From: Aminobacter anthyllidis
GTDB lineage: Bacteria; Pseudomonadota; Alphaproteobacteria; Rhizobiales; Rhizobiaceae
DNA: 64,000 nt
Direction of reading: 5' to 3'
Assembly (NCBI RefSeq): GCF_018555685.1
Contig: NZ_JAFLWW010000004.1
Coordinates: forward strand, 186,001 to 250,000
Shown here: piece by piece, positions 1,067 to 16,088 of the stretch
Numbering within the stretch: position 1 is the stretch's first letter
How the letters are laid out: every line of letters begins with the position of its first letter
Translations under genes and position numbers: made by a program
The notes under the pieces: generated by a model
Databases searched by the model: none
Told to the model about the DNA's origin: nothing
The model's input: only the letters and a program-made list of their open reading frames with translations

Positions 1067-1829
1067 AGTTCGCGGACTGACCAAGATCTTCGGTGGGTTG
1101 ACGGCAGTGAAGGATCTGAACTTCACGCTAGATGCGGGAGAGATTCTTTCCATCATCGGCCCCAATGGCGCCGGCAAAAGCACCTGCTTCAAGCTGATCG
1201 CCTCCTTCCTCAACCCGACGACTGGCACCGTCCGTTTCAACGGCAAGGACATTACCGGCATCGGACCGCATGCGGTGGCTCGCCACGGCATAGTGCGGAC
1301 GTTCCAGGAAAACACCAGTTTTCAGGACATGACCGTGCGCGAAGCGGTGCTGCTCGGTTACCAGAAGGATTGTAAGGCCTCGCTGGCCGGCATGATCTTC
1401 CGGTCGCCACGAGCCAGGAGAGACGAGCGCGAGGCCGGCGACTATGCCGATCACGTGCTCGACATGCTCGGTATGACAGGCCTGGCCAATACGGTTTCGG
1501 CGGCCTTGCCGCACGGCATGCTGCGCAATCTCGGCATCGCGGTGGCACTTGCGGCCAGACCCAAGCTCATCCTGCTCGATGAGCCGTTCGCCGGCCTAAA
1601 CTCGGACGAGACCAAGCGCGGCGTCGAGCTGATCCGCAAGATCCGCGACGATGGCGTCACGCCCATCCTGGTCGAGCACGACATGACCGCGGTCATGTCG
1701 GTCAGCGAGCGCATTGTGGTTGTCAGTTTCGGCAGCAAGATCGCCGAGGGAACGCCGGCGGAGATCCAGCAGAACGAGAAGGTCATTGAAGCCTATCTCG
1801 GTGCCGAAGACACGGAGATCGGGCTATGA
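1059..1829 (+). CDS. livG: ABC transporter ATP-binding protein LivG
   Basis: Cytoplasmic ATPase of the Liv-type importer, 256 aa. Walker A is GPNGAGKST near residue 34 and Walker B is LILLDEP near residue 170, followed by the H-loop in LVEHDM. The signature motif is unusual: where LivG proteins carry something like LSYGQQRRLEIA, this one reads LPHGMLRNLGIA, so the LSGGQ-equivalent is degraded. Because LivG/LivF form a heterodimer, one weak composite site may be tolerated. It overlaps livM by 8 bases and livF by 4. Confidence 0.92.
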   Translation: MLEVRGLTKIFGGLTAVKDLNFTLDAGEILSIIGPNGAGKSTCFKLIASFLNPTTGTVRFNGKDITGIGPHAVARHGIVRTFQENTSFQDMTVREAVLLGYQKDCKASLAGMIFRSPRARRDEREAGDYADHVLDMLGMTGLANTVSAALPHGMLRNLGIAVALAARPKLILLDEPFAGLNSDETKRGVELIRKIRDDGVTPILVEHDMTAVMSVSERIVVVSFGSKIAEGTPAEIQQNEKVIEAYLGAEDTEIGL

Positions 1830-2542
1830 GCGCGCAATTCTCGATCCGGGACTTGGCTGTGTCCTATGGCAGGGTTCGCGCCGTGAAGGGCGTCTCCCTG
1901 ACCGCCGGCGAGGGACAGATCATTTCCCTCATTGGCGCCAATGGCGCCGGCAAGTCTTCCATCCTTCGCGCTATCACGGGTCTGACCGCGCCTGAGAGCG
2001 GCGAGATCTGGTTCGACGGCGAGCGGATCGACGGCAAGGGACCCGACCAGATCGTGGCGCGCGGCGTGGCAATGGTTCCGGAAGGGCGGCGTATCTTCCC
2101 GTTCATGAGCGTACGTGACAACCTTTTGATGGGAGCGTATCGCCGCAAGGACAATGCCGGTGTCGCGTCGGATCTCGAAGGCATCCTGACGCGGTTCCCT
2201 CGCCTGCGTGAACGCATCAGGCAGCAGGCCGGCAGCCTGTCCGGCGGCGAACAGCAGATGGTGGCGATCGGCCGCGCGCTGATGTCCAAGCCGCGGCTTT
2301 TGCTGCTGGACGAGCCGTCGCTCGGCATCGCACCGATCATCGTGCGCGAGATTGCCCGTTTCATCACCAGCATCAACCGGGACAACGGCGTCAGTGTCAT
2401 TCTTGTCGAACAGAACTCGCGCATGGCGCTCAAGCTCTCCAGCCACTCCTACGTGCTCGAGACAGGCAAGATCGCCTTGTCGGGGCCGTCGCACGAACTG
2501 GCCGAGAATGACGACGTTCGTCGTGCCTATCTCGGCGGCTAG
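1826..2542 (+). CDS. livF: ABC transporter ATP-binding protein LivF
   Basis: Second ATPase of the importer, 238 aa. Walker A is GANGAGKSS, the signature is canonical (LSGGEQQMVAIGRAL) and Walker B is LLLLDEPSLG; the H-loop lies in ILVEQN. The start ATG overlaps the livG stop (ATGA), which supports this start. It pairs with the LivG that has the weak signature, so this subunit supplies the intact signature motif. Confidence 0.93.
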   Translation: MSAQFSIRDLAVSYGRVRAVKGVSLTAGEGQIISLIGANGAGKSSILRAITGLTAPESGEIWFDGERIDGKGPDQIVARGVAMVPEGRRIFPFMSVRDNLLMGAYRRKDNAGVASDLEGILTRFPRLRERIRQQAGSLSGGEQQMVAIGRALMSKPRLLLLDEPSLGIAPIIVREIARFITSINRDNGVSVILVEQNSRMALKLSSHSYVLETGKIALSGPSHELAENDDVRRAYLGG

Positions 2543-2551
2543 GGGCAGGTC

Positions 2552-3295
2552 ATGAAGATCGAGATCATCAATCCGACGACCACCGCGGCCTTTGCGAGGA
2601 AAAACCTGGCGGCCGCGCAAGGCGTCGCCTCGCCGGGTACCGAGATTCTGTCAGTGTCGGTCAAGAGCGGGCCACCGTCGATCGAAAGCCACTACGACGA
2701 GGCGCTCAGCACGATTGGCATCCTGGAAACGATCCGCGAGGGCGAGGCAGCTGGCGTCGACGGCTATGTCATCGCCTGCTTCGGCGACCCAGGCTATCTC
2801 GCCGCTCGCGAGATCGCGCGGGGGCCGGTGATAGGCATTGCCGAGGCGGCCTTCCATGTCGCCAGCATCGTGGCGACCCGCTTCTCGGTGGTCACCACGC
2901 TCGCCCGCAGCAAGATCATCTGCGAGCACCTGCTGCAGGTCCACGGCTTCGAGCACCAGTGCCGAAAGGTCAGGGCCTGCGGGCTCGAGGTTCTCAAACT
3001 CGAGGAGACCGGCATGGCGGCCTGCCGCGACATCGTCGAGGAATGCCGCCGCGCTGTCGCCGAAGACGATATCGGCGCCATCGTGCTCGGCTGCGCCGGC
3101 ATGGCCGACCTGGCCGAGCATATCCAAGAGCAGATCGGCGTTCCGGTCATCGAAGGCGTCACCGCCGCAACCAAGCTGGTCGAAGGCATCGTTGCCCTGA
3201 GGCTCGGCACCAGCAAGTTCGGCGACCTTGCCTATCCGTTGCCCAAGCGGCTGAGCGGATCAGTCAAGCATCTTGAAATCGCACCGCGCGACTAG
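2552..3295 (+). CDS. hpxA: Aspartate/glutamate/hydantoin racemase family protein (allantoin racemase-like)
   Basis: Cofactor-independent racemase of the Asp/Glu/hydantoin racemase superfamily, 247 aa. The two catalytic cysteines are visible in ACFGDPG (about residue 75) and LGCAGM (about residue 180), the paired-Cys layout of HyuE and HpxA. HpxA interconverts the enantiomers of allantoin, and HyuE those of 5-substituted hydantoins. The next two genes look like allantoinase and allantoate amidohydrolase, which favours allantoin. The gene starts 9 bases after livF, so transport and catabolism are probably one operon. The exact substrate is unproven. Confidence 0.8.
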   Translation: MKIEIINPTTTAAFARKNLAAAQGVASPGTEILSVSVKSGPPSIESHYDEALSTIGILETIREGEAAGVDGYVIACFGDPGYLAAREIARGPVIGIAEAAFHVASIVATRFSVVTTLARSKIICEHLLQVHGFEHQCRKVRACGLEVLKLEETGMAACRDIVEECRRAVAEDDIGAIVLGCAGMADLAEHIQEQIGVPVIEGVTAATKLVEGIVALRLGTSKFGDLAYPLPKRLSGSVKHLEIAPRD

Positions 3296-3339
3296 GCCGG
3301 CGTCAGTCTCCGTCCGGATCAGGTAGAAAGGATCGAACA

Positions 3340-4248
3340 ATGTCTTACCCCCGCGATATGATCGGCTACGGCAATCGGCCGCCGATGGCCAACTGGCCGA
3401 ACGGCGCCAAGCTTGCGCTGCAGTTCATCGTCGCCTTCGAGGAGGGTTCGGAAAACTGCGTCCTCCACGGCGATGCCCATTCGGAGAACTTCATCTCCGA
3501 CATCATCGGCGCACCACAGCTCTTCGGCGTGCGCAACATGAACATGGAGTCACTCTACGAATATGGAACGCGCGTGGCGTTCTGGCGGGTGTTCGACGAG
3601 TTCAAGCAGCGCGGTATCAACACCACCGTGCTGGCGAACGGCCTGGCGCTGCAGCATTACCCTGAAGCCGGCAGGATCATGCACTCGCTTGGCCACGAGA
3701 TTGCCAGCCATGGCTGGAAGTGGATCGACCACCAGTGGATGGGCGAAGACACCGAACGCGCCCAGATGAAGCTTGCCATAGACACCATCACGCGCGTGAC
3801 CGGCGAACGACCAGTCGGCTGGTACACCGGCCGCTGCAGCCCCAACACGCTCAAACTGGTGGTCGAGGAGGGCGGCTTCCTCTACGATTCCGACACCTAT
3901 GCCGATGACCTGCCCTATTGGGAGAACGTCAACGGCAAGCAGCACCTGCGCATTCCCTACACGCTCGAAGCCAATGACATGCGCTTTGTGGCGGCTGCGG
4001 GCTTCAACTCCGGCGACCAGTACTTCACCTATCTCAAGGATACATTTGACGTCCTCTACCGCGAGAGCGACAGGACCCCGCGGATGATGTCGACCGGGCT
4101 CCATCTGCGCATCGTCGGTCGTCCCGGGCGCTGGGCGGCCTTCCTGCGCTTCCTCGACTACGTCCAGAAGCACGAAGGAGTCTGGATCTGCCGGCGCGAT
4201 GAAATCGCCCGCCACTGGCACAAGCATCATGCACCTGAGCGGCAGTAG
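3340..4248 (+). CDS. puuE: Allantoinase PuuE-type (polysaccharide-deacetylase fold)
   Basis: 302-aa NodB-fold protein matching the PuuE family, the metal-independent allantoinase that hydrolyses (S)-allantoin to allantoate. Supporting features are the N-terminal DMIGYGNRPP and WPNGAKLALQF segments, an EEGSE stretch, the IASHGWKWIDH region in place of the metal-binding HTxxH of true deacetylases, and GWYTGRCSPNT. The length fits the family (about 300 aa). It sits between a racemase and an allantoate amidohydrolase. A related polysaccharide-deacetylase-fold hydrolase acting on another cyclic ureide cannot be excluded. Confidence 0.85.
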   Translation: MSYPRDMIGYGNRPPMANWPNGAKLALQFIVAFEEGSENCVLHGDAHSENFISDIIGAPQLFGVRNMNMESLYEYGTRVAFWRVFDEFKQRGINTTVLANGLALQHYPEAGRIMHSLGHEIASHGWKWIDHQWMGEDTERAQMKLAIDTITRVTGERPVGWYTGRCSPNTLKLVVEEGGFLYDSDTYADDLPYWENVNGKQHLRIPYTLEANDMRFVAAAGFNSGDQYFTYLKDTFDVLYRESDRTPRMMSTGLHLRIVGRPGRWAAFLRFLDYVQKHEGVWICRRDEIARHWHKHHAPERQ

Positions 4249-4273
4249 AGGCGCAGCGGCCCGGGAACGCATC

Positions 4274-5521
4274 ATGTCGAACTATCTCAGCGAGACCGAC
4301 GCCGGGCAGCGCATCATGCGGCGCTGCAACGAGCTTGGCAGCATCAGCGTGCCGGGTGCTGGCGTGACGCGACTTTATCTTTCACAGCAACACCGCTCAG
4401 CCGCCGAAACCATTGCCGGATGGATGCGCGATGCCGGTATGGACGCGCGCATCGACGAGGCCGGCAACGTTGTCGGCCGCTACCATTCCGTGAGCGGCGG
4501 AGGCCCCTATCTCGTCACCGGCTCGCATATGGACAGCGTCGTCCATGCCGGCCGCTATGACGGCCCCCTCGGCGTGCTGACCTCGCTCGACTGCGTCGCC
4601 GTGCTCCATGGCCGTGGTCGCCGCCTGCCATTCGGCGTCGAAGTCGTCGCATTCGCCGACGAGGAGGGCACCCGGTTCAGGACGACGCTTGCCGGAAGCC
4701 GCGCGATCACCGGGCAGTTCGGCGACGACCTGCTGGACGCAACGGATGCCGACGGCCACAGCGTTCGCGAGGCAATGGTCGCGTTCGGGCTCGATCCCGG
4801 CGCCGTCGGCAATGCTGCCCACCGCCCCGACGAGGTGATCGGCTACGTCGAGCTGCATATCGAGCAGGGACCGGTACTGCAGGCGGCCAACCTGCCCGTC
4901 GGCGTGGTGACCGCGATCAGCGGACAGACGCGCGCGGTGATGCGGCTGAATGGAGCGGCCAATCATGCCGGCACGGTACCGATGGGCATGCGCAAGGATC
5001 CGCTTCTGGCCGCAAGCGAAATCGCGCTCGCGGTCGAGCGAATCGCCTCTGCCTATCCGGACACGGTCGGCACCGTCGGCTTCATCAAGGCGGAGCCCGG
5101 ATTGATCAACGTCATTCCAGGCGAGGTCTCGCTGACGGTCGACTTGCGTTCGCAGGTCGACGGCATTCGACACGCCGCCTTCGACGAGCTTGGAATCGCT
5201 GCCGGAAACATCGCGGCGCGGCGCGGCGTGGAGATCAACATCGACACGATACTCGATCTCCATTCATGCCCGTGCGCACCCGATTTCGTCGACCGCATCG
5301 CGACCGCGGTCGAAGCAGCCGGGGTGCGGCCCCTGCGCCTGCCAAGCGGCGCCGGCCATGACGGCATGGCGATGAGCACGATGACCGGCATCGGCATGAT
5401 CTTCGTCCGTTGCAAGGACGGCATCAGCCATTCGCCGGAAGAGTCGGTCACTGCCGAGGACGTCGCAACGGGAGCGGCCACGCTCCTGCATTTCATCGAG
5501 AATTTTCAGGGAAGACCCTAA
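4274..5521 (+). CDS. allC: Allantoate amidohydrolase / N-carbamoyl-L-amino-acid hydrolase (M20)
   Basis: Cytoplasmic binuclear-metal amidohydrolase of the AllC/HyuC group, 415 aa. Metal ligands are recognisable in GSHMDSV, the Asp of DGPLG, DEEGTRF, ELHIEQGP and the C-terminal CKDGISHSPEE; the lid domain contains SGQTRAVMR and NHAGTVPMGMRKD. A longer frame opens at 4199 inside puuE, but the family begins near MSNYLSE, so the ATG at 4274 is chosen. AllC releases ammonia and CO2 from allantoate to give ureidoglycine. N-carbamoyl amino acid hydrolysis is the alternative, because the two activities are hard to separate by sequence. Confidence 0.84.
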   Translation: MSNYLSETDAGQRIMRRCNELGSISVPGAGVTRLYLSQQHRSAAETIAGWMRDAGMDARIDEAGNVVGRYHSVSGGGPYLVTGSHMDSVVHAGRYDGPLGVLTSLDCVAVLHGRGRRLPFGVEVVAFADEEGTRFRTTLAGSRAITGQFGDDLLDATDADGHSVREAMVAFGLDPGAVGNAAHRPDEVIGYVELHIEQGPVLQAANLPVGVVTAISGQTRAVMRLNGAANHAGTVPMGMRKDPLLAASEIALAVERIASAYPDTVGTVGFIKAEPGLINVIPGEVSLTVDLRSQVDGIRHAAFDELGIAAGNIAARRGVEINIDTILDLHSCPCAPDFVDRIATAVEAAGVRPLRLPSGAGHDGMAMSTMTGIGMIFVRCKDGISHSPEESVTAEDVATGAATLLHFIENFQGRP

Positions 5522-6783
5522 TGGAACCGAACCCCATCGCAAAAAGTCCCGGCCTCGGTTCGGAGCGCCTGCTGGATTACGTCGGGGCGCATCGCGACGA
5601 CCAGGTGCGCATGCTGGCGGAACTCGTCAAGGTGCCGTCTGACAATCCGCCCGGGGACTGTGCGGCGCATGCCGATCGAGCTGCTCAGCTCTATGAAGCC
5701 TTGGGCTTCACGGTCGAGCGGCACAAGGTGCCCGACGCGCTGGTTGCGAGCGTCGGCATGATCAGTGCCACCAACCTGATCGTCCGGCACAGCTTTGGTC
5801 CCGGCCCGACCATCGCGCTCAACGCGCATGGCGACGTCGTGGCACCTGGCGAGGGCTGGACGGTCGATCCCTATGGCGCCGAGGTCAAGGATGGCTGGAT
5901 GTATGGCCGAGGCGTCGCGACCTCGAAATCCGACTTCGTCACCTACGCCTATGCGCTGTTGGCGCTGCGCTCGCTGGGCGAGAAGCTGTCGGGCACGATC
6001 GAAATTCACTTAACCTACGACGAGGAGGTTGGTGGCGACATCGGGCCGCTCTACCTTCTGCAGCAAGGGCTGACCAAGCCGGATTACGCGATCTGCGCCG
6101 GCCTGTCCTACGGTGTGGTCACTGCCCATAATGGCTGCCTGCATCTCGACATCGATGTCCGCGGCAAGTCTGCCCACGCGGCACGGCCTGAAACCGGCAT
6201 CGATGCGCTCGAGGCTGCAACCCACATCCTGAGCCGGCTCTATTCGCTGCGCTCAGGCTTTGCTGAGCAACGCTCTTCGGTCGAAGGCATCACCACGCCG
6301 TCGCTGGTCGTCGGGCTGATCTCTGGCGGCATCAACACCAATGTGGTTCCCGACAAGATCGTGATGCGCGTCGACCGCCGCATGATCCCGGAAGAGGACG
6401 GCCCGGCGGTGGCGCGCGACCTGATCGCCTTCATTGAGGCCACTGCGCGGGAGATGCCGGGCGTCGAATGCCATGTCCGCCAACTCATGCTGGCCAACCC
6501 GCTGAAGCCGCTCGAGGGACAGGCGCGCCTGGCTGGCGCCTTGCAGCGGCATGCTTCGGAACTCGTCGGCGAGACCGTGCCGACCCATGGCGTGCCGCTC
6601 TACACAGACGCGCGGCACTACAGCAACGCCGGCATTCCGACCGTGCTGTACGGCGCCGGTCCGCGGACGATGCTCGAGGCCAATGCGCACCGCGCCGATG
6701 AGAAGCTCAGGATCGATGACCTTGTCCTGGCGACCAATGTCGTGACGCTGGCCCTCTATGACATGCTCACCGGAAACGCCTGA
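5521..6783 (+). CDS. M20 family metallopeptidase/deacylase (ArgE/DapE-like)
   Basis: 420-aa M20 hydrolase. The metal-binding motifs are NAHGDVV, YGRGVATSKSD (a variant of GRGxxDMKGG), TYDEEVGG with the catalytic Glu, and a C-terminal His in EANAHRADE. The start ATG overlaps the previous stop (TAATG), which fixes the start against a longer frame opening at 5410. The position at the end of the ureide operon suggests it deacylates or decarbamoylates an intermediate such as an N-carbamoyl or ureido acid, but ArgE/DapE-like sequence does not reveal the substrate. Confidence 0.85.
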   Translation: MEPNPIAKSPGLGSERLLDYVGAHRDDQVRMLAELVKVPSDNPPGDCAAHADRAAQLYEALGFTVERHKVPDALVASVGMISATNLIVRHSFGPGPTIALNAHGDVVAPGEGWTVDPYGAEVKDGWMYGRGVATSKSDFVTYAYALLALRSLGEKLSGTIEIHLTYDEEVGGDIGPLYLLQQGLTKPDYAICAGLSYGVVTAHNGCLHLDIDVRGKSAHAARPETGIDALEAATHILSRLYSLRSGFAEQRSSVEGITTPSLVVGLISGGINTNVVPDKIVMRVDRRMIPEEDGPAVARDLIAFIEATAREMPGVECHVRQLMLANPLKPLEGQARLAGALQRHASELVGETVPTHGVPLYTDARHYSNAGIPTVLYGAGPRTMLEANAHRADEKLRIDDLVLATNVVTLALYDMLTGNA

Positions 6784-7063: not shown

Positions 7064-8218
7064 ATGGCGAATGGTGACTGGCGGATTGGCGTCCTGTTTT
7101 CCAGCAGCGGGGTGACCGCTGCGGCCGAGACGGCCGAAGCGAACGCGACGCGCCTTGCGATCGAAGAGATCAATGCAGCGGGCGGTGTGCGCGGGCGACA
7201 GATAAACGCCGTCTTCTACGATCCGGAATGTTCGGCCAAGAAGTACCAGGAACTTGCTGTTCGCCTTCTCGCCGAGGATGGCATCAAGATCATTTTCGGA
7301 TGCTACATGTCGTCGGCCCGAAAAGCCGTCCTGCCTGAAATCGAAGCCTATCGCGGCATGCTGTTTTACCCGACCTTCTACGAGGGGTTCGAGTATTCGA
7401 CGCGTTGCTTTTATACCGGTTCGTCGTCGAACCAGAACGCAGTCCAGCTTGCGCGCTATTTGATCGAGAACTACGGCACACGTTTCCTGCTGGTCGGCTC
7501 GAACTACGTGTTTCCCTACGAGTACAACCGCGTCGTCATGGATTTGGTGACCAGGGCCAAGGGGACCATTCTCGACGAGATTTATGTGCCGGTCGAAGCG
7601 GTGCGCAAGGATTTCAACCGTGTCATCAAGCAGATCGGCAAGCTGAAGCCGGACATCGTGGTGTCGACCGTTGTCGGCACTGGCGCGGTCATGCTCTACG
7701 AGGCCTACAAGGAGGCCGGCTTCGACGTCGAGACGATGCCAATAGCCAGCCTGACGACGACCGAAGCCGAAGTTGCCGAGATGGCGCCTGATATCGCGGC
7801 GGGGCACCTGACGTCCGCGTCGTTCTTCGAAACGCTCGACACACCGCAGGCGCGGCGGTTCGTTTCGGCCTACAAGCAACGGTTTGGCGCCGATGCGCCA
7901 GTCACGGCGGGCGCCGAGGCTGCCTATTTTCAGGTCCATCTCTACGCCAAGGCCCTGGAACTGGCTGGCACGGACGAGCCGGAAGCGCTGGCCAAGCATC
8001 TCGCCGGGCTGGAGTTCGAAGCGCCGCAAGGGCGGATACGCATTGACCCCGACAACCACCATACGGAACTGTGGTCGCGCATCGGGCGAGTCAACGCGGA
8101 GGGCAAATTTGACGTTATCTGGCAGTCCGAGACGAGGATCAGGCCGGATCCTTATTTCGTCACTGCGTCATTCGATGATTGGATGAGCAAGCCCCATCAA
8201 CTGAAACGCAAAGCATAG
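7064..8218 (+). CDS. amiC: AmiC-like amide/urea sensor, negative regulator of AmiR
   Basis: 385-aa periplasmic-binding-protein-fold protein (Peripla_BP_6 type) without a signal peptide, so cytoplasmic; the length equals that of Pseudomonas AmiC. The frame is open from 6866, but homology starts at MANGDWRIGVLFSSSG, giving the ATG at 7064. Typical AmiC/UrtA landmarks are SSSG, EEINAAGGVRGR, IIFGCYMSSARKAVLP, FYPTFYEGFEYS and SSNQNAVQLA. AmiC holds AmiR inactive until a small amide binds. It resembles the UrtA encoded downstream, which supports urea or a short-chain amide as ligand. It is followed 13 bases later by amiR. Confidence 0.87.
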   Translation: MANGDWRIGVLFSSSGVTAAAETAEANATRLAIEEINAAGGVRGRQINAVFYDPECSAKKYQELAVRLLAEDGIKIIFGCYMSSARKAVLPEIEAYRGMLFYPTFYEGFEYSTRCFYTGSSSNQNAVQLARYLIENYGTRFLLVGSNYVFPYEYNRVVMDLVTRAKGTILDEIYVPVEAVRKDFNRVIKQIGKLKPDIVVSTVVGTGAVMLYEAYKEAGFDVETMPIASLTTTEAEVAEMAPDIAAGHLTSASFFETLDTPQARRFVSAYKQRFGADAPVTAGAEAAYFQVHLYAKALELAGTDEPEALAKHLAGLEFEAPQGRIRIDPDNHHTELWSRIGRVNAEGKFDVIWQSETRIRPDPYFVTASFDDWMSKPHQLKRKA

Positions 8219-8231
8219 CGGGTCGTTTTCG

Positions 8232-8840
8232 GTGCCAACCAGTATTCTCCACGATCTGAAGGGCTTGCGCGTCCAAGTCATCCATCCGCCGGATCAGGCG
8301 GGGCTGGCCTTGGTCGAGCATCTCAGGCGCATCGGCTGCAGCTGCGAGACGACCTGGCCTTTGCCCGACGCAATAAGCCCCTCCGCGGTGGTGGTGCTCG
8401 TTTCAATCGAGCAGGAGAACCGCGACAAGATCCTGAGCCTGTTTCGGCCCGTGCAGCCGTCCGATCCCGCCTTGGTGGCGGTGGTGACCTATGAGGATCC
8501 GAGCACGCTGCAGGTGGTGCTGGAGTGCGGGGCGCTGGCGGTTATCGAGCGGCCGATCCGCCCGTTCGGCCTGCTGACCAATTTGACCATCGCGCGCGCG
8601 CTCTGGCTCGAGCGGCAGAATGCCAGCAAGCGTATCCGCAAGCTGGAGCGGAAGCTGGCCGGTAACAACCGCATCCTGCGTGCGAAGAATATTCTGATGG
8701 AAACGCAAGGCCTTAGCGAGCAGGATGCGTATGAGAACATTCGCCGGCAAGCGATGGCGAAACGCGTTCCGATGGACGATCTGGCGAGCGCGATCATCAA
8801 CGCGCATGAGCTCTTGACGTACAAGGATATGCGTGACTAG
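8232..8840 (+). CDS. amiR: AmiR-like ANTAR-domain transcription antiterminator
   Basis: 202-aa RNA-binding regulator. Residues 1-125 form a pseudo-receiver domain lacking an obvious phospho-acceptor pocket; a charged coiled coil (KRIRKLERKL) follows, then a C-terminal ANTAR domain at about 140-195 with the family pattern AKNILM, SEQDAYENIRRQAM and a final ASAIINAHEL helix. The start is a GTG 13 bases after amiC, with no in-frame ATG nearby matching the family. ANTAR proteins bind paired hairpins in leader RNA and prevent formation of an intrinsic terminator; such hairpins lie directly downstream. No amidase gene is adjacent, only urea transporter and urease genes. Confidence 0.87.
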   Translation: MPTSILHDLKGLRVQVIHPPDQAGLALVEHLRRIGCSCETTWPLPDAISPSAVVVLVSIEQENRDKILSLFRPVQPSDPALVAVVTYEDPSTLQVVLECGALAVIERPIRPFGLLTNLTIARALWLERQNASKRIRKLERKLAGNNRILRAKNILMETQGLSEQDAYENIRRQAMAKRVPMDDLASAIINAHELLTYKDMRD

Positions 8841-8843
8841 TAT
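8814..8843 (+). promoter_or_regulatory. Candidate promoter for the urt/ure leader transcript
   Basis: TTGACG (8814-8819) and TAGTAT (8838-8843) are separated by 18 bases and overlap the last codons of amiR. A start around 8850 would place the leader stem-loops at the very 5' end of the transcript. This is a consensus match by eye only (5 of 6 and 4 of 6 bases). Read-through from the amiC promoter could also feed the leader. Confidence 0.4.
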
Positions 8844-8854
8844 GAAACATAATT

Positions 8855-8926
8855 GACGCCGGGTGAAGCTTGGCGTCGATACGGTGTGAGACAATGTGGT
8901 CTGCACCGAGTGGCTATGTAGCCCGC
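8855..8926 (+). ncRNA. ANTAR-type leader RNA: stem-loops P0, P1 and P2
   Basis: Three consecutive stem-loops. P0 (8855-8877) pairs GACGCCGGG with CTTGGCGTC. P1 (8882-8908) has 10 bp, CGGTGT-AGAC against GTCT-GCACCG, with one bulged G at 8888 and a six-base loop AATGTG (8893-8898): A at position 1 and G at position 4, the hallmark of ANTAR-bound hexaloops. P2 (8910-8926) pairs GTGGC with GCC-GC (one bulged C) around TATGTA, keeping the loop core ATGT and the G at position 4 but not the A at position 1. The 3' arm of P2 is also the 5' arm of the following terminator, so P2 and terminator exclude each other. Inferred ligand: the AmiR encoded just upstream. Confidence 0.68.
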
Positions 8927-8963
8927 AAACTCCTTATCGGAGTTGGCGGGCTTTTTTGTTTTT
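8920..8963 (+). terminator. Intrinsic terminator/attenuator before the urt operon
   Basis: AGCCCGC (8920-8926) pairs with GCGGGCT (8946-8952), and inside it AACTCC (8928-8933) pairs with GGAGTT (8939-8944) around TTATC, with one A/G mismatch. A run of T follows (8952-8957, then G and five more T). It is a strong Rho-independent terminator lying between amiR and urtA, in the position expected for a regulated attenuator. Its 5' arm is sequestered when P2 forms. Confidence 0.85.
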
Positions 8964-9344
8964 CGGCTTCCGACAAGGCCGTTGGCAGCCGTTGGTTCGA
9001 TCTGCAGCACTTCTTGACGCTCGTTGGTCAGCGCATGCGAACGCGTGCGCGACATCGCCTTTGCTCGGCGGCGGCTCGCCTCGATTTCGGTCGGGTCTGT
9101 CGCTTCCTGCCTGGAGATTATTGCGATTGTAGAAGAACAAATGAGTAATTCATCGAAATAGTGAATTGCATTATTGCTCGCCATTTGTGATAGCGAGGGG
9201 TTCTATTTAAACACTTGTTTTGAGGAGGGAAAAATATACTAAAAACTGTTGCTTATTATAATTTTCTAATACAGCCTGTAGTTGGTCGCGAATGGGGCGG
9301 CTTCACAAAAAATCAAACGCACAACGATGCGAACAGGAGGACCA
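8964..9344 (+). other. Long untranslated leader between attenuator and urtA
   Basis: About 380 bases without a credible gene. The second half (about 9130-9290) is far more AT-rich than its surroundings. It contains an inverted repeat AATTCA/TGAATT (9147-9152 and 9162-9167), a CTCGC/GCGAG stem (9177-9197) and a perfect TATAAT (9257-9262) without an obvious -35, so a second, attenuator-independent promoter is possible. An AGGAGG at 9335-9340 is the urtA ribosome binding site. Confidence 0.5.
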
Positions 9345-10592
9345 ATGAAGAACCATGATAGGCGTACCTTTCTGAAAGTGTCGGGCCTCGCGGCTGTAGG
9401 ATTGGCCGCTCCGGCGATCCTGCGTCTCGGCGACAAGGCCTGGGCAGCCGACGAGATTCCCGTCGGCATCATGTATTCGCTGACCGGGACCACGGCGATC
9501 GTCGAGAAATCGATGAACCAGTGCGCCCAGATGGCAATTGACGAAATCAACGCCAAGGGCGGTGTCCTTGGCCGCAAGCTGCGCGCGATCATCGAGGATC
9601 CGGCGTCCGAACCGCGCATCTACAGTGAAAAGGCGCGCAAGCTCACGATCGAGGACCAGGTTCCCGTGATCTTCGGCTGCTATACCACCGCAAGCCGTAA
9701 GGCGGTCCTGCCGGTCGTCGAACGGCGCAAGGGCTTGCTGGTCTGGCCGACCTGGTATGAAGGCGAGGAGTGCTCCAAGAACGTGCTCTATGCTGGCTCC
9801 GCTGTGCCCAATCAGCAGTTGGAAAATTCGCTTCCGTGGCTGCAGAAGAGCCTTGGCAAGAACAAGGTCTTTATCGTCGGCTCCGACTATGCCTTCCCAC
9901 GCGGCATGGCCAAGACGTCGAAGACGATCTGCGAAAAGATCGGCATGCAGGTCGTCGGTGACGAGTACCTGCCGCTCGGCCACACCGAATGGGCGTCGAT
10001 GGTCTCCAAGATCGGCTCCAGCGGCGCCGATGTGATCTTCTCCAACGTCGTCGGCGACTCGATCGTCGCCTTCTACAGGGAGCTGCGCAACCAGGGTTAC
10101 GACTTTGACAAGCTGCCCTTGTGTTCGTCGACAACGACGGAAGTCGAAATCAAGGCGATGGGTCCCGAATATGCGCTCGGCAGCTACGTCTCGCTGCCCT
10201 ATTTCCAGACGGTCGACACGCCTCAGAACAAGGTGTTCGTCGAGGCCTTCAAGGCCTATGCAGGCGCCGATGCCGTTACCCACGCCGCGATGGAGGCGGT
10301 CTATGTCGGTGTCAACATGTGGGCGATGGCCGCGGAAAAGGCAGGCGACCTTGCGCCGGAAGCGATCGTGGCAAGTGCCGGAGGGCTGTCCTTCGACGCA
10401 CCGCAGGGCAAGGTCACCATCGACCCCGACAACCTGCACAGCTACCTGACGCCGCGCATCGGCAAGACCCGCGCCGACGGCCTGCTCGATATCGTCGACC
10501 AGTATGCCGAACCGCTAGTGCCGCTGCCGTACTCAAGCGTCGGCGAGACGGCGGAGAAGCGGGTCTGCACGACGAGCGGCGCAACGCTCTAG
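9345..10592 (+). CDS. urtA: Urea ABC transporter substrate-binding protein UrtA-like
   Basis: 415-aa periplasmic binding protein with a Tat-type signal (DRRTFLKVSG followed by a hydrophobic stretch to AWAA). UrtA landmarks are MYSLTGTTAIVEKS, PVIFGCYTTASRKAVLP, WPTWYEGEECSKNV and AVPNQQL. The start is the ATG at 9345, preceded by AGGAGG; a frame opening at 9282 adds only leader sequence. It would deliver urea, or a small amide, to UrtBCDE. It is related to the AmiC sensor encoded upstream, so the sensor and transporter may share ligands. A strong hairpin follows the stop. Confidence 0.87.
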   Translation: MKNHDRRTFLKVSGLAAVGLAAPAILRLGDKAWAADEIPVGIMYSLTGTTAIVEKSMNQCAQMAIDEINAKGGVLGRKLRAIIEDPASEPRIYSEKARKLTIEDQVPVIFGCYTTASRKAVLPVVERRKGLLVWPTWYEGEECSKNVLYAGSAVPNQQLENSLPWLQKSLGKNKVFIVGSDYAFPRGMAKTSKTICEKIGMQVVGDEYLPLGHTEWASMVSKIGSSGADVIFSNVVGDSIVAFYRELRNQGYDFDKLPLCSSTTTEVEIKAMGPEYALGSYVSLPYFQTVDTPQNKVFVEAFKAYAGADAVTHAAMEAVYVGVNMWAMAAEKAGDLAPEAIVASAGGLSFDAPQGKVTIDPDNLHSYLTPRIGKTRADGLLDIVDQYAEPLVPLPYSSVGETAEKRVCTTSGATL

Positions 10593-10663: not shown

Positions 10664-11554
10664 ATGGAAACTTTTGTCATCGGCCTGAGCATCGCATCGA
10701 TATTGTTCATGGTCGCCCTCGGCCTGGCGATCATCTACGGCACCATGAACGTCATCAATCTCGCCCATGGCGAGATGGTGATGATCGGCGCCTACACCAC
10801 GGTGCTGGCAACCAAGCATCTCGGCTTCAACATCTATCTCTGCCTGCCGCTGGCGTTCCTGGTGACGGCGACATTCGGGCTGATCATCGAGCGCACCGTC
10901 GTGCGTAGGCTCTATGGCCGGCTGCTCGACACCTTGCTGGCGACGTGGGGCATCGCGCTCATCCTGCAGCAGCTCATCCGGATTCACTTCGGGCTCGGGC
11001 TGTTCGGTGTCGAGATCGACGGGCTTGGCTCGGATCTGCAGAACGTCCCAGTCCCCGCCGAATTGCAGCAGGCCTTTCAACTCTTCGGCGCCAACATTCC
11101 CGTCTATCGGGCCTTCGTATTCGTCGCCGCACTGGCACTGGGCGCCATCACCTGGCTCCTGATGTTCAGGACGCGTTTCGGCAGCCAATTGCGCGCCGTT
11201 TCGGTCGCCCGGAACACAGCCGCTGCCTGCGGTATCAACGACAAGCGCGTCAACATGCTGGCCTTCGCCTATGGCTCCGGCCTCGCCGGCATCGCTGGCG
11301 TTCTGGTGTCGGGGTTCAAGACCGTTTCGCCTGACATGGGCACGCCCTATGTCGTCGACGCCTTCCTCGTTGTCGTCGCCGGCGGCGTCGGCCATCTGCT
11401 CGGCACCTTCGCCTCGGCAGGCATTCTCGGCGAAGTACAGAGCTTCGTCGCCACCTGGGCAAATGACGTCTACGGACGAACTGTCCTGTTTGCCGTCGTG
11501 ATCTTCATTCTCCTCTTCAAGCCTCAGGGTCTCTTCGTCACGAAGAGCCGCTGA
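10664..11554 (+). CDS. urtB: Urea ABC transporter permease UrtB-like (LivH family)
   Basis: 296-aa inner-membrane permease. The N-terminus METFVIGLSIASILFMVALG leads into the LivH hallmark IYGTMNVINLAHGEMVMIGAY. Later segments include RFGSQLRAVSVARNTAAACG, the cytoplasmic coupling loop, and a C-terminal FKPQGLFV. The frame extends back to 10121 inside urtA, but only the ATG at 10664 gives a normal LivH start. It is followed by urtC after 13 bases. Confidence 0.9.
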   Translation: METFVIGLSIASILFMVALGLAIIYGTMNVINLAHGEMVMIGAYTTVLATKHLGFNIYLCLPLAFLVTATFGLIIERTVVRRLYGRLLDTLLATWGIALILQQLIRIHFGLGLFGVEIDGLGSDLQNVPVPAELQQAFQLFGANIPVYRAFVFVAALALGAITWLLMFRTRFGSQLRAVSVARNTAAACGINDKRVNMLAFAYGSGLAGIAGVLVSGFKTVSPDMGTPYVVDAFLVVVAGGVGHLLGTFASAGILGEVQSFVATWANDVYGRTVLFAVVIFILLFKPQGLFVTKSR

Positions 11555-11567
11555 GCTTGGCTGCAAC

Positions 11568-12686
11568 ATGGACGAGCGCATGACATACCGCACCGCTTCC
11601 ATCATCGCCTACATCGTCTTCTTCGCCGTTGTGCTGGCGCTTCCGCTGGTGCTCAACAGCTTCTGGACCAACCGCGTCGCGATCTACCTGGTCTATTCGA
11701 TCTGCGCGATCGGCATCAGCATGTCGTGGGGCTATGCCGGCATACTGAGCCTCGGCCAGGGCCTGTTCTTCGGCATGGGCGCCTACATGCTGGCGATGTC
11801 GCTGACCCTCGCCGTGCCGGACAACAACCCGGTACCGCAGCTGATGCTGCTCAACATGGAGCCGGATGCGGTTCGCGATCTCTGCTGCGTCACGACAGGC
11901 TCCTTCCTATGGATCCCGTTCCGGTCGGTTGCCGTCGGCATGATCGCGGGGATCGTCGTGCCTTGCATCCTGGCCGCCGGCATCGGCTACGTTATGTTCA
12001 AGCGGCGTACGACAGGCGTCTATGTCAGCATCATCACGCTGGCCTTCGCGTTGATCGGTCAGTTGCTCATCATCAACAACCAGCCGCTGACCGGCGGCTT
12101 CAACGGCTTGGCTGATCTGGCGCTGCTGGAGATCGGCGGCTTTGAGTTCGACCCCTACGGACCGAGCGCCTATTATGCTGTCGCGTTCACGCTGATCGTG
12201 GTGATCCTGCTCGCCCGCTACATGCTGGCCGGACGCATCGGCCAAGTGCTCAAGGCCATTCGCGAAGACGAGGCGCGCGCCCGCTACCTCGGCTACGACG
12301 TCGAGAACTACAAGCTCTTCATCTTCTGCGTGTCTGCCGGCGTCGCGGGCCTGGCTGGAATGCTGTTCACGCTTACCTCGGAGTTCGCCACGCCGTCGCT
12401 GATGGCGACGTCGCTCAGCATCTCGATGGTGATCTGGGCCGCGACCGGCGGTCGCGCATCCCTGCTCGGCGCCTGCATCGGCGCGCTGATCGTCAATTTC
12501 GTCGGCTCGCTTGCCAGCGAAAGCGCGACCTTCCAGCCGGTGTGGCCGATCATCCTTGGGCTGCTGTTCGTCGTCGTCGTGCTGTTCATGCCGAACGGGA
12601 TTGCTGGGATTTTCAAAGCCTTCATCGAACGCTCCGGCAAGGCCGAGCGCTTCGCTAAGGCAGAGCTTTCGGCAAGGGAGGCGTGA
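11568..12686 (+). CDS. urtC: Urea ABC transporter permease UrtC-like (LivM family)
   Basis: 372-aa permease with about ten membrane segments. LivM/UrtC features are SMSWGYAGILSLGQGLFFGM near residue 55, an internal hydrophilic insert (about residues 85-115, with two adjacent Cys), ITLAFALIGQLLIINNQPLT, and the coupling region AIREDEARARYLGYDVENYK. A second possible start five codons in (MTYRTAS) cannot be ruled out. It is followed by urtD after 3 bases. Confidence 0.9.
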   Translation: MDERMTYRTASIIAYIVFFAVVLALPLVLNSFWTNRVAIYLVYSICAIGISMSWGYAGILSLGQGLFFGMGAYMLAMSLTLAVPDNNPVPQLMLLNMEPDAVRDLCCVTTGSFLWIPFRSVAVGMIAGIVVPCILAAGIGYVMFKRRTTGVYVSIITLAFALIGQLLIINNQPLTGGFNGLADLALLEIGGFEFDPYGPSAYYAVAFTLIVVILLARYMLAGRIGQVLKAIREDEARARYLGYDVENYKLFIFCVSAGVAGLAGMLFTLTSEFATPSLMATSLSISMVIWAATGGRASLLGACIGALIVNFVGSLASESATFQPVWPIILGLLFVVVVLFMPNGIAGIFKAFIERSGKAERFAKAELSAREA

Positions 12687-12689
12687 ACG

Positions 12690-13484
12690 ATGAATGCCGT
12701 CCATAAGACATCACACGTGGCAGCCGCTTCGGCGGCGCCCATCTTGCGGACTCGGAACCTGACGGTTCGCTTTGACGAATTTCCCGCCGTGCGCGACGTC
12801 GACCTGTCGATCGCCGATGGCGAACTCAGGGTGATCATCGGCGCCAATGGCGCCGGCAAGTCGACCTTGCTGGATCTGCTGTGTGGCAAGACCTTGCCCT
12901 CCGAGGGTGAGATCTGGCTGCATGACCGCAACATCACCGGCATCGGCGAGGCGGCCATCGCCCGCAGTGGTGTGGGTCGCAAGTTCCAGACGCCGACGGT
13001 GTTCAAGGACATGACGGTGCTTGAAAATCTCCAGGTGGCGAGCAGTCGCCGGGTCCGCGTGTTCCAGAACCTCTTCGAGCGGGTGAAGTCAGGGCCGAGC
13101 GACAAGGAGATCGCGGTTGCCGAGCGGACCGGCTTGCTTGGCTCGATGAAGCGCAAGGCATCGGAGCTGTCGCACGGCCAGCTGCAGTGGCTCGAACTGG
13201 CGATGGTACTGAGCCAGGACCCCAAGATTATCCTGCTCGACGAACCCGCCGCCGGCATGACGGCGGCTGAAACCGACAAGACGGCCGAGCTGCTGCTTGA
13301 TCTCGCTGGCGGCCATACGGTGCTGGTGATCGAACACGACATGGCCTTCGTCCGCCGCATCTGCCGGACCATCACGGTGATGCACCAGGGGGCTGTACTT
13401 GCCGAGGGAACTGCGGAGGAGATCGAATGCAATCCCGCAGTGATCGAGGCCTATCTTGGATCGGCGACGCTCAGCCATGCTTAA
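12690..13484 (+). CDS. urtD: Urea ABC transporter ATP-binding protein UrtD
   Basis: 264-aa ATPase. Walker A is GANGAGKST, Walker B is IILLDEPAAGM, and the signature is LSHGQLQWLELAM; the SHGQxQWLE form is characteristic of UrtD rather than ordinary LivG. The first 25 residues are a low-complexity leader before ILRTRNLTVRF. The stop overlaps the urtE start by 8 bases. Confidence 0.92.
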   Translation: MNAVHKTSHVAAASAAPILRTRNLTVRFDEFPAVRDVDLSIADGELRVIIGANGAGKSTLLDLLCGKTLPSEGEIWLHDRNITGIGEAAIARSGVGRKFQTPTVFKDMTVLENLQVASSRRVRVFQNLFERVKSGPSDKEIAVAERTGLLGSMKRKASELSHGQLQWLELAMVLSQDPKIILLDEPAAGMTAAETDKTAELLLDLAGGHTVLVIEHDMAFVRRICRTITVMHQGAVLAEGTAEEIECNPAVIEAYLGSATLSHA

Positions 13485-14172
13485 GTTCAAAGACCTCAAT
13501 GTGTTCTACGGAACCAGCCATATCATCCACGATCTCAACCTTGAAATCCGCAAGGGCGAGGTCTTCTGCATCATGGGCCGTAACGGCGTTGGCAAGACGA
13601 CGCTGTTGCGCAGCTTGCTCGGCATCGGCGTGCAGACCAAAGGCGGCATCGAGCTCGACGGAGCAGAGATCAGCCGCGATCTTACCTATCAGCGGGCGCG
13701 GCGCGGCATCGGCTACGTCCCGCAGGGGCGCGAGATCGTGCCCGGGCTCAGCGTGCTCGACAACATCTTGCTTGGCTGCAACGCGCGGGCGGATGGACAG
13801 ACGTCGGTGCCGCCACTGGTCTGGACGCTGTTTCCTTTCCTGAAGGACCATCTCAACCGGCGCGGCACCAACCTCTCGGGTGGCCAGCAGCAGCAGCTGG
13901 CGATTGCCCGTGCGCTCGCCACCGATCCGAGCATTCTTGTTCTTGACGAACCAACAGAGGGCATCCAGCCAAACATCGTCGAGCACATCGAACAGGCGAT
14001 CGTGTCGCTCAATCGGGATTATGGTTTGACCATCATTCTCGTCGAGCAGAAGATACGCTTTGCGCGCACCGCTGCGCATCGGTTTGCCATCCTTGAAAAA
14101 GGTCAGATCGCGGCGGCCGGTCAAACCGCCGATCTCAGCAATGAACTGATCCACAAGCACATGAGCTTGTAG
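13477..14172 (+). CDS. urtE: Urea ABC transporter ATP-binding protein UrtE
   Basis: 231-aa ATPase of the LivF/UrtE family starting MLKFKDLNVFYG. Walker A is GRNGVGKTT, the signature is LSGGQQQQLAIARAL and Walker B is ILVLDEPTEGIQP, all typical of UrtE. A longer frame starting at 13456 lies inside urtD; the ATG at 13477 is chosen because it matches the family and gives the usual short overlap. Confidence 0.92.
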   Translation: MLKFKDLNVFYGTSHIIHDLNLEIRKGEVFCIMGRNGVGKTTLLRSLLGIGVQTKGGIELDGAEISRDLTYQRARRGIGYVPQGREIVPGLSVLDNILLGCNARADGQTSVPPLVWTLFPFLKDHLNRRGTNLSGGQQQQLAIARALATDPSILVLDEPTEGIQPNIVEHIEQAIVSLNRDYGLTIILVEQKIRFARTAAHRFAILEKGQIAAAGQTADLSNELIHKHMSL

Positions 14173-14244
14173 TGCTGCCGCGTACTTATGCCTGCCGGAC
14201 ACCGACTACGCCCACCATGGGTTCAGCGCAGAAAGGTTACTGAG

Positions 14245-14697
14245 ATGCTCCGAGTTGAAACTGTGCTTGGCAGCCGAAACGATCCGGCCTTGCATGAGGC
14301 GATCCACCATCTCGAGCATCACCATGCCGTGGAGTTCGTGACTGTGGCCGTCGGCGATCTCGACCGGCGGCGGCTGATGGCGCGAACCGACAAGGGCGAG
14401 GAGGTGGCAATCACTTTGCCACGCGACCAGAAGCTTCATGACGGTGCAGTGCTTGTGCTCGACCATCATCGCGCGGTGATCGTGCGCGCTGGGGAGCAGC
14501 GCTGGCTGAGGTTCACCCCGCGTTCGGCCAGCGATGCGCTGGAACTAGGCTACCACGCCGGCAATCTTCACTGGCGTGTCCGCTTCGACGGCGACGACCT
14601 CCTCGTTGCTCAGGATGGGCCTGCTTCGGCTTATGCCGCGCGCGTCGATCCGCTTATCTCAAGCGGCCGCGTCGAGATGAGCGAGGTCGCCGAATGA
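14245..14697 (+). CDS. ureE: Urease accessory protein UreE (nickel chaperone)
   Basis: 150-aa nickel-carrying chaperone that donates Ni to the UreDFG-apourease complex. Recognisable are the N-terminal peptide-binding part and GYHAGNLHWRVRF, the UreE metal-site region, with its His. There is no His-rich C-terminal tail; the protein ends at VEMSEVAE, so nickel storage is not expected. An internal HHLEHHH run near residues 21-27 could add metal binding. The ATG at 14245 is preferred to a longer frame opening at 14188. The stop overlaps the ureF start (ATGA). Confidence 0.88.
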   Translation: MLRVETVLGSRNDPALHEAIHHLEHHHAVEFVTVAVGDLDRRRLMARTDKGEEVAITLPRDQKLHDGAVLVLDHHRAVIVRAGEQRWLRFTPRSASDALELGYHAGNLHWRVRFDGDDLLVAQDGPASAYAARVDPLISSGRVEMSEVAE

Positions 14698-15377
14698 ACC
14701 AGCCATCGATACAATTGCTCGTCGCTCTCCAGCACGCCGACGGGCAGTTCCCGTCAGGAGGATTTGCCTTCTCGCAAGGGCTCGAGGCGTCGTCATCGCT
14801 AGCCGGCAAGCTGGGCGTGTTCGAATTCGCTGGCTTCGTCGACACCCAGATTCGCCATCGCTGGGCCAATGCGGACCGTGTCGCGCTGGTGCGGGCTTTT
14901 CGACTTGCCGGCGACCTCGACGCGCTTGCCGAGCTGGACCGCGAGGTCGAAGCCTCGACCTTCGTGGAGGGACTGCGGTCGGGCTCGCGCCGCAACGGTG
15001 CTGCTCTTCTGACCACCCACGGACGCTTGGGGACGAAGGGGGCAGCGGCCTATCGCGCGATGGTTCGCGATGGCCGGGCCAGCGGTCATCTTGCTGTCGT
15101 GCAGGGTCTTGCGTGGCAGGCAATCGGCCTCGACGAGGCGACGGCTGTTGCGATCGGCGGCTACCAGATGGTCGCCTCGCTGGGGACAGCCGCGGTGCGG
15201 CTCGGCTTGATTGGCGCCATCGACGCGCAGGCTTCGATCGCCCGGGCGCTGCCCGAGGTCGAAGCGGCGGCTTGCAGGCCTGTCGCCGACGATGAAGCGT
15301 TGCGTTCGTTCGCGCCCCTTTGTGAGATCGCGGTCGCGATGCACGGCGCTTCGGGCCAGCGCCTGTTTTCCAATTGA
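14694..15377 (+). CDS. ureF: Urease accessory protein UreF
   Basis: 227-aa all-helical chaperone that forms the UreD-UreF-UreG activation complex. The N-terminal motif HADGQFPSGGFAFSQGLEAS is diagnostic for UreF (equivalent to DSxxPxGxFxxSxGLE). It begins in an ATGA overlap with ureE and precedes the structural genes, an order different from the common ureDABCEFG. Confidence 0.9.
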   Translation: MNQPSIQLLVALQHADGQFPSGGFAFSQGLEASSSLAGKLGVFEFAGFVDTQIRHRWANADRVALVRAFRLAGDLDALAELDREVEASTFVEGLRSGSRRNGAALLTTHGRLGTKGAAAYRAMVRDGRASGHLAVVQGLAWQAIGLDEATAVAIGGYQMVASLGTAAVRLGLIGAIDAQASIARALPEVEAAACRPVADDEALRSFAPLCEIAVAMHGASGQRLFSN

Positions 15378-15392
15378 TGAGGAGCGCACGCC

Positions 15393-16088
15393 ATGCTGCT
15401 GACCCCAACCGAACTTGAACGCCTGACGATCTACACGGCGGCCGAACTTGCGCGCAAACGCCGGGCCAAAGGCCTGTTGCTCAACTATCCTGAAGCCGTT
15501 GCCATCATCTCCGACGAGATTCTCGAGGGCGCCAGGGAAGGGCGCTCGGTTGCGGACATGATGTCGTTCGGTTCCGCCATCCTGACCCAGGCCGAGGTCA
15601 TGCCCGGCGTGGCGGCAATGCTGCCAATGCTGCAGATCGAGGCGACGTTCCGCGACGGCACCAAGCTGGTCACCGTGCATGAGCCGCTACGGCCGGCAGC
15701 CGGTGCCGCGGCCGACGATCTCGAGCCCGGCGCAATCATCACCGAAGACGGCGACATCGAGCTGAACGCCGGGCGCCGCAAGCTCACGCTGAAGGTCGTC
15801 AATACCGGCGACCGACCGGTGCAGATCGGCAGCCACTACCATTTCTTCGAGGTCAACAAGGCGCTCGACTTCGACCGCGCGGCTGCCTTCGGCATGCGCC
15901 TCGACATTGCCGCGGGCACCGCCGTGCGCTTCGAGCCGGGACAGGAGAAGGATGTTCCGCTCACCACCTTCGGCGGGCAGCAACAGCTCTCCGGCCTCAA
16001 CGGGCTATCGAATGGCTCAGCCGACGATGCGGCGGTGAAGGCCGCTGCGCTTGAAAACGCCCGCGCCCGCGGCTTCCGCGGCGCCTGA
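15393..16088 (+). CDS. ureAB: Fused urease gamma-beta subunit
   Basis: 231 aa. Residues 1-100 are the gamma subunit ([60 protein letters not shown]); after a short linker, residues about 110-231 are the beta subunit ([55 protein letters not shown] end). Most bacteria encode these separately as ureA and ureB. A continuous gamma-beta chain is the Helicobacter-type arrangement. No stop or frameshift separates the parts, so the fusion looks real. It lies 14 bases ahead of ureC. Confidence 0.93.

Follow-up and report, generated by a model that had tools for sequence, protein, structure and literature searches.

An AmiC/AmiR-type ANTAR leader with a variant P2 hairpin and a third hexaloop upstream of urea transporter and urease genes in Aminobacter anthyllidis

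We analyzed a 64,000-nucleotide (nt) stretch of the Aminobacter anthyllidis genome (contig NZ_JAFLWW010000004.1, positions 186,001 to 250,000; hereafter, the window) and, within it, the leader between amiR and the urea transporter gene urtA. The leader is real, and it is an AmiC/AmiR-type ANTAR leader with a new target, a variant second hairpin (P2), and an extra third hairpin (P3). The gene order on the plus strand was amiC-amiR-leader-urtABCDE-ureEF(AB)CGDJ. Judged from the sequence, the leader in all probability acts in cis by ANTAR antitermination and controls urtABCDE-ureEF(AB)CGDJ. An initial annotation of this DNA had proposed an AmiC/AmiR pair, an ANTAR-type leader, and urt and urease genes as the target; our results support this combination, the parts of which were conserved together. 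Coordinates without a label are window positions, L-numbers are compared loci, and G-numbers are searched genomes.

The leader and its hairpins

The classical AmiC/AmiR scheme is that of Pseudomonas aeruginosa, in which the pair governs amidase expression by antitermination. In the window, an AmiC homolog (amiC, 7064-8218, plus strand; Pfam Peripla_BP_5, 9e-135) was encoded together with a protein composed of an AmiR_N pseudo-receiver and an ANTAR RNA-binding domain (amiR, 8232-8840, plus strand; Pfam AmiR_N, 2e-34, and ANTAR, 6e-16). The best solved relative of AmiC was P. aeruginosa AmiC (1pea, 330 bits), followed by chain 8tg1 (277 bits) and three urea-binding UrtA chains (201-206 bits); for AmiR, too, the best match was the solved P. 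aeruginosa protein (1qo0, 2e-27). AmiC was taken as cytoplasmic, a signal peptide being absent by eye. Downstream of the pair lay urt and ure genes in place of the aliphatic amidase of classical pairs.

A promoter-like pair (TTGACG-N18-TAGTAT, 8814-8819/8838-8843, plus strand) was detected in a consensus scan. It had been placed after amiR; the pair itself exists, but it sits inside amiR and across its 3′ end (8814-8843). Twelve loci were used for the leader alignment (the window, L003, and L015-L024; seven of them Aminobacter), and L025 was left out as too diverged. TTGAC[G/C] was kept in 12 of 12 sequences and the TAnnnT box, by eye, in 11 of 12 (all except L021). The TTG codon at the promoter site was present in all 11 compared amiR genes, mostly from near relatives, vs. 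42 of 283 other leucine codons.

Folding of the plus strand recovered, at the coordinates first assigned to them, P0 (8853-8879), which is expected to form the 5′ end of the leader RNA, P1 (8882-8908), P2 (8912-8923), and an intrinsic terminator (8920-8963; stem-loop 8920-8952, U tract 8952-8963). The RNA from 8850 to 8958 folded at −55.4 kcal/mol vs. −32.4 ± 3.3 for 200 shuffled sequences (z = −7.1), none of which was as good. The P1 hexaloop, AATGTG at 8893-8898, carries the predicted A at position 1 and G at position 4 (A1/G4) and is closed by GAC/GTC; all 12 aligned loci retained these features, and the remaining loop bases varied. P2, GGC[TATGTA]GCC, has a hexaloop with U1, G4, and A6, and UNNGNA was present in all 12. 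Because the 3′ arm of its 3-base-pair stem (GGC/GCC) lies inside the 5′ arm of the terminator, P2 and the terminator are mutually exclusive. This exclusion had been anticipated with a shared segment of 8921-8926; the shared arm is shorter (8921-8923). The overlap was kept in all 12 aligned leaders, and the gene of the cognate ANTAR protein, amiR, adjoins the leader, ending at 8840. Rfam gave nothing above gathering scores within the window; a Trp leader (19.4 bits) and SraG (21.8 bits) in 8750-9350 were under these scores and were rejected.

P1 covaried clearly and the terminator weakly. In P1, four pairs were changed on both sides, a number reached by 21 of 500 shuffles and a score reached by 2 of 500, and slid controls gave 0 or 1 such pairs. 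In the terminator, 96.8% of cells were paired and three pairs were changed on both sides (14 of 500 shuffles). P0 was paired in 89.5% of cells, but its covariation score was reached in 258 of 500 shuffles, and P0 was therefore rejected as a covarying element.

A third hairpin, P3 (8970-8985, plus strand; CCGAC[AAGGCC]GTTGG), lies downstream of the terminator U tract and was absent from the initial annotation. This third A1/G4 hexaloop behind the terminator is new here. The stem had at least 5 base pairs in 14 of 15 spacers examined; in L021 it was weaker, with A1/G4 kept. The P3 covariation score (0.309) exceeded that of shuffles (0.124 ± 0.034) and was reached by none of 500; three pairs were changed on both sides in ten cells, a kind of count that relatedness inflates. 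Among 25 leaders from the clade and the sister loci (eight Aminobacter, near-copies included), 24 had the pattern GAC[ANNGNN]GTY at most 45 nt past the T run. It was missing in Shinella L136, and P3 was not found in 11 other leaders (L108, L109, L114-L121, and L123; L108 and L123, which the pattern did not catch, were judged by eye). The closing GAC/GTC(T) and A1/G4 are common to P1 and P3, as would be expected if one protein reads both. Because P3 lies past the point of termination, it cannot act directly on the terminator, and we infer a role on the read-through RNA. A DNA operator is less likely: of 13 distinct rows, 10 had G-U at one stem pair, a pairing compatible with an RNA helix that would break a DNA palindrome.

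Antitermination is very likely, along the following lines. Transcription would start at the promoter overlapping the end of amiR. In the default state, P1 would fold first in the nascent RNA and the terminator next, and RNA polymerase would stop near 8958. AmiC, as a cytoplasmic receptor, would keep AmiR inactive, a step taken from the P. aeruginosa pair; on binding a small ligand of the amide type, urea being the most likely one, it would free AmiR. Freed AmiR would bind the P1 hexaloop and then P2, the 3′ arm of P2 would be kept from the terminator, and RNA polymerase would read through into the transporter and urease genes. P3 would be a third AmiR site, present only in the read-through RNA, and may keep AmiR attached to the long untranslated leader once antitermination has occurred.

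Several observations on the hairpins weigh against this reading. The P2 loop had U1 in 12 of 12 loci (G4 also in 12 of 12), in place of the published A1/G4 of P2, and we have filed the leader as a variant that operates as the ANTAR family does, not as a strict member; A1 was present in P2 of relatives L025, L105-L107, and L136-L138. The P2 stem was invariant among the 12 loci, so covariation, the test suggested for the leader in relatives, gave a signal in P1 and could give none in P2. The terminator control slid by +1 likewise gave three two-sided pair changes, and the P3 controls slid by +1 to +3 showed two to four, with scores of at most 0.175. P1 of the sister loci L025 and L105-L107 was without an A1/G4 loop, and a scan found no A1/G4 P1 loop in L137, L138, and L143.

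No other A1/G4 hexaloop was as constant as P3 across the clade and the sister loci, and the lack of A1/G4 in P1 of L025 and L105-L107 points the same way: AmiR could, via P3 or a different site, affect RNA stability, Rho-dependent termination, or translation, and not the intrinsic terminator. We consider this unlikely, given that RNA polymerase reaches P3 only past the terminator and that all aligned leaders keep the P2/terminator overlap. The stem-loop could also be the ordinary terminator of amiCR, with urt and ure transcribed from their own promoter in 8963-9345 and the hexaloops coincidental. The 386-nt spacer does contain an inverted repeat in an AT-rich stretch and, before urtA, a block conserved in Aminobacter. 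No plus-strand promoter was detected there by the consensus scan, which covers sigma-70-like sites; the AT-rich repeat was not kept in L020-L024, with only a GGCCGCGA-GGGGCGGC-like piece recurring in L023 and L024; and a Shinella plasmid had just 217 bases between amiR and ureE. The P1/P2/terminator overlap, the A1/G4 conservation, and the P1 covariation would be unexpected for a plain terminator, and this alternative is very improbable. The block itself (9232-9345, before urtA; inverted repeat TATTA...TAATA) is a possible second control site.

Searches by RNA and occurrence in relatives

A de novo scan for a P1 hexaloop, a P2 hexaloop, and an overlapping terminator was positive in 17 of 26 post-amiR regions vs. 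2 of 282 other 450-nt strand-segments of the window; L111-L113, L122, and L124, in which no terminator had been seen earlier, were left out. The P1-P2-T-run pattern occurred at 10 places in 10 of 397 genomes of the order. Six of the 10 were directly behind amiR: the A. anthyllidis leader, two Labrys leaders matching L023 and L024, and new ones in G801, G794, and G894, where the leader was followed in all three by amiE and urease genes (no urt in G794). A covariance model built from the 12 leaders matched the leader of the amiE-amiC-amiR locus L122 (30.2 bits) and the post-amiR leaders of L105-L108, L114, L119, L120, and L025.

The same searches also gave results that count against the antitermination reading. 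Nine of the 26 regions escaped the strict scan, the backwards pattern control gave eight matches in seven genomes, and the pattern places in G877, G1052, G1034, and G1120 had no AmiR within 1.5 kb on either side; it is therefore the place, and not the number, of pattern matches that carries weight. The covariance model scored 29.7 bits on the minus strand of the window terminator, 26.0 bits on the plus strand of L122, and 26.9 bits on a plain terminator elsewhere in the genome, and matches at 25-30 bits are no proof by themselves. An AmiR regulon within the A. anthyllidis genome was rejected on the same model: among L126-L128, the matches checked (weaker matches L129-L132 being left out), L126 was the terminator read on the opposite strand, and L127 and L128 resembled plain terminators.

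An AmiR search of genome contigs gave 11 loci, all with amiC before amiR and urtA-E after it. Among the 10 alphaproteobacterial loci, UreC (93-99% identity) was encoded downstream on the same strand in eight (L015, L017, and L019-L024), and in the other two (L016 and L018) the contig ends before the ureC position. In L025 (Paracidovorax), the sole UreC copy was unlinked (58%). Other Aminobacter carried the locus on plasmids of approximately 520-580 kb. Of the genomes searched, 67 of 385 in the class and 152 of 398 in the phylum matched the AmiR profile, counts that include other ANTAR proteins such as NasT relatives. Wide flanks were taken for 20 loci (L105-L124), three further A. anthyllidis loci besides a NasT-like one, and nine plasmid regions; AmiR places above approximately 70 bits in G111, G594 (C46), G771, G714, and G660 fall outside this set.

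AmiC/AmiR adjoined an aliphatic amidase in L109 (NCBIfam) and in L122 and L123 (Pfam CN_hydrolase and likeness). Other neighbors were a formamidase (L108), carbon-nitrogen hydrolases, urt-type or peptide-type transporters, and urease. No target was evident in some loci, L112 and L113 among them, and L124 had no AmiC match. A Shinella sumterensis plasmid, the one with the short gap, carried amiC-amiR-leader-ureEF(AB)CGDJ without a transporter, and an amidase operon adjoined its urease operon in opposite orientation. Ancylobacter had the order amiC-amiR-leader-urtA-E-amiE-ureEF(AB)CGD. On a Methylobacterium plasmid (L140:3944-16630), the same urease type lay beside urate/allantoin genes and a urtA gene, with no amiC/amiR among the annotated genes of that stretch.

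Further hexaloop hairpins were seen near other amiC and amiR genes. In Paracidovorax (L025:3770-3826), a hairpin with an AGTGAA hexaloop overlaps a terminator before amiC itself, which suggests autoregulation. Behind amiR in L123 and L109, two candidate hexaloop-terminator units stand in tandem before the transporter of the amiE operon. UNNGNA P2 loops occurred behind amiR in eight of eight loci with carbon-nitrogen hydrolase genes (L114-L121), several of which had a further A1 hexaloop hairpin upstream.

Receptor pocket and inducer

Eight conserved urea-contact residues of UrtA are described in the available text of PMC10392092, and we mapped them through chain 8hic, which has all eight. AmiC of the window kept four of the eight positions (Ser, Tyr141, Glu, and Tyr190). 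Compared with P. aeruginosa AmiC, it had Pro107 replaced by Phe and Tyr152 replaced by Phe among the tabulated pocket positions. Phe152 was present in 14 of 14 rows with urease in the operon and in 0 of 28 others; all 10 urease-only rows had Phe107, and none of the four rows with amiE and urease did. L158-L160 were counted as urease-linked because urease genes are present there, and L018, in which the contig ends before ureC, was so counted by 95% identity; L108, with a formamidase in the operon and urease genes adjacent on the opposite strand, was counted among the 28 others, and L015-L017 were left out as near-copies. In the tree, the urease-linked AmiCs formed one clade (96/88), with the urease-only ones nested inside it (100/98). 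Each pocket change was thus probably a single event.

Three points speak against urea as the ligand. The UrtA-like protein of the window had Y, T, W, W, E, Y, V, and T at the contact positions and kept two of eight (Glu146 and Tyr190). AmiC Phe152 aligns with UrtA Phe192, mutation of which, according to the same available text (PMC10392092), had little effect on urea binding; Phe152 was therefore rejected as proof of urea binding. Finally, amiE accompanied urease in four relatives, so that an amide could be the inducer. With six of eight UrtA contact residues differing and the equivalent of Phe152 unimportant in UrtA, urea is a plausible but unproven ligand of AmiC, and it is likewise a plausible substrate of the transporter.

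The leader may thus work as proposed with short amides (formamide or acetamide) as inducer and substrate, and with urease as a mere companion. The AmiC and UrtA-like pockets are closer to AmiC than to urea-binding UrtA, and relatives combine this transporter family with amiE or formamidase. No amidase gene was recognized in the window operon by NCBIfam or from the A. aminovorans annotation, however, and both the distribution of Phe107 and the separate, oppositely oriented amidase operon of Shinella argue against this reading; we regard amides as a real possibility that falls short of probable. With comparable caution, we suggest that a clade of AmiC may have turned into a cytoplasmic urea receptor that controls urease through RNA antitermination, and that three hexaloops in place of two would form a two-stage switch, with P1 recruiting AmiR, P2 blocking the terminator, and P3, behind it, binding AmiR on the read-through RNA. 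Along a natural series within the clade, from amidase with urease to urease only, the receptor pocket and the target changed in step. If the antitermination reading is correct, urease, which is central to nitrogen turnover in soil, would be governed in these bacteria by a ligand-released RNA-binding protein, and a mechanism known from amide breakdown would extend to urea use.

Operon genes and comparison with known systems

The genes downstream of the leader were those first named, urtABCDE and ureEF(AB)CGDJ, all on the plus strand. The UrtA-like substrate-binding protein of a urea/amide ABC transporter (9345-10592) scored 403.5 bits with TIGR03407, under the cut-off of 492.75, whereas the permeases UrtB (10664-11554; TIGR03409) and UrtC (11568-12686; TIGR03408) and the ATPases UrtD (12690-13484; TIGR03411) and UrtE (13456-14172; TIGR03410) passed their urea ABC transporter equivalog cut-offs. 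The urtE frame is open from a TTG, and the true start is probably a little downstream. Fused urease gamma/beta (ureAB, 15393-16088; NF009671), urease alpha (ureC, 16103-17815; TIGR01792), and UreG (17820-18467; TIGR00101) passed urease equivalog or subfamily cut-offs, and the accessory protein UreE (14188-14697; NF009752) also exceeded its cut-off. The accessory gene ureF (14694-15377; UreF family in the annotated A. aminovorans copy), ureD (18464-19339), and a ureJ/hupE-type gene (19385-19987) were assigned from the annotation of A. aminovorans, their products having no NCBIfam match at 1e-20.

Upstream of amiC, 32-6783 holds branched-chain-type ABC transporter genes and genes for an Asp/Glu/hydantoin racemase, the allantoinase PuuE, an allantoate amidohydrolase, and an ArgE/DapE deacylase, a set for ureide breakdown, which is a source of urea. 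The last ureide genes were also upstream in L015-L017 and were not found there in L019-L024.

The A. anthyllidis genome has five ANTAR genes, four of them paired with AmiC-like receptors (the window, L043, L044, and L045); the fifth, in L046, resembles by eye a NasT gene with NasS as its neighbor. A second, unlinked urease (55%) was also present. The second amiC-amiR pair (L043:6203-14618), approximately 20 kb upstream on the same contig, is followed by an alpha/beta hydrolase, a urt-like transporter, and a UreE_N-domain protein; the hexaloops of its leader are indistinct. The third (L044:12098-15062) has a leader with P1 GCCCGC[ACCGAT]GCGGGC and P2 AGC[AAAAAA]GCT before a helix-turn-helix-cupin regulator 52% identical to one ending the window operon. 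The fourth, AmiC/AmiR-like pair (L045:9213-11933) abuts an ABC permease gene and leaves no leader space behind amiR.

Literature searches, thin on subscription journals, gave no description of AmiC/AmiR or ANTAR control of urease, urtA, or a urea transporter in this form; nothing was found on ANTAR with a third hairpin or on FmdD with formamide and urea. The novelty first claimed for RNA antitermination of urea uptake and urease holds for urease control by AmiC/AmiR, within the literature searched. For urea uptake it is narrower: in Ramesh 2012 (PMC3369931), which defines the dual hairpin with a search model that kept A1/G4 in both loops, ANTAR RNA matches upstream of urea transporter genes are listed as predictions. 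The main-text passage on these sites names neither AmiC/AmiR, urease, the P2 variant, nor P3. Gene neighborhoods described in the available text of PMC13209695 include amiC/amiR with amiE and an ABC transporter in Klebsiella sp. KOS9 and amiC/amiR with amiE in Pseudomonas veronii Yu15; on the Yu15 chromosome, urtABCDE lies beside amiE and formamidase without amiC/amiR there, and a link of amiC/amiR to urease is not described in that text for either strain.

As far as the P. aeruginosa system (amiE leader) is covered by the sources used, the A. anthyllidis locus shares with it the receptor and ANTAR regulator families and the paired hairpins overlapping an intrinsic terminator. It differs in its target (transporter and urease, not amidase), in the leader lying between amiR and the target, in U1 of the P2 loop, in the extra P3, and in the receptor, with Phe in place of Pro107 and Tyr152. 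With EutV of Enterococcus faecalis and NasR of Klebsiella, as presented in the passages available (PMC3369931 and PMC8934654), it shares dual hexaloops, A1/G4 in P1, and a P2 overlapping the terminator; those regulators are phosphorylated or nitrate-sensing, whereas here AmiR would be ligand-released, position 1 of P2 deviates, and a third hexaloop is present. The U1-type P2 and the post-terminator P3 thus bear on the two-hexaloop model of ANTAR antitermination (PMC8934654, in the part available), and U1-type sites could escape searches that demand A1/G4 in two loops.

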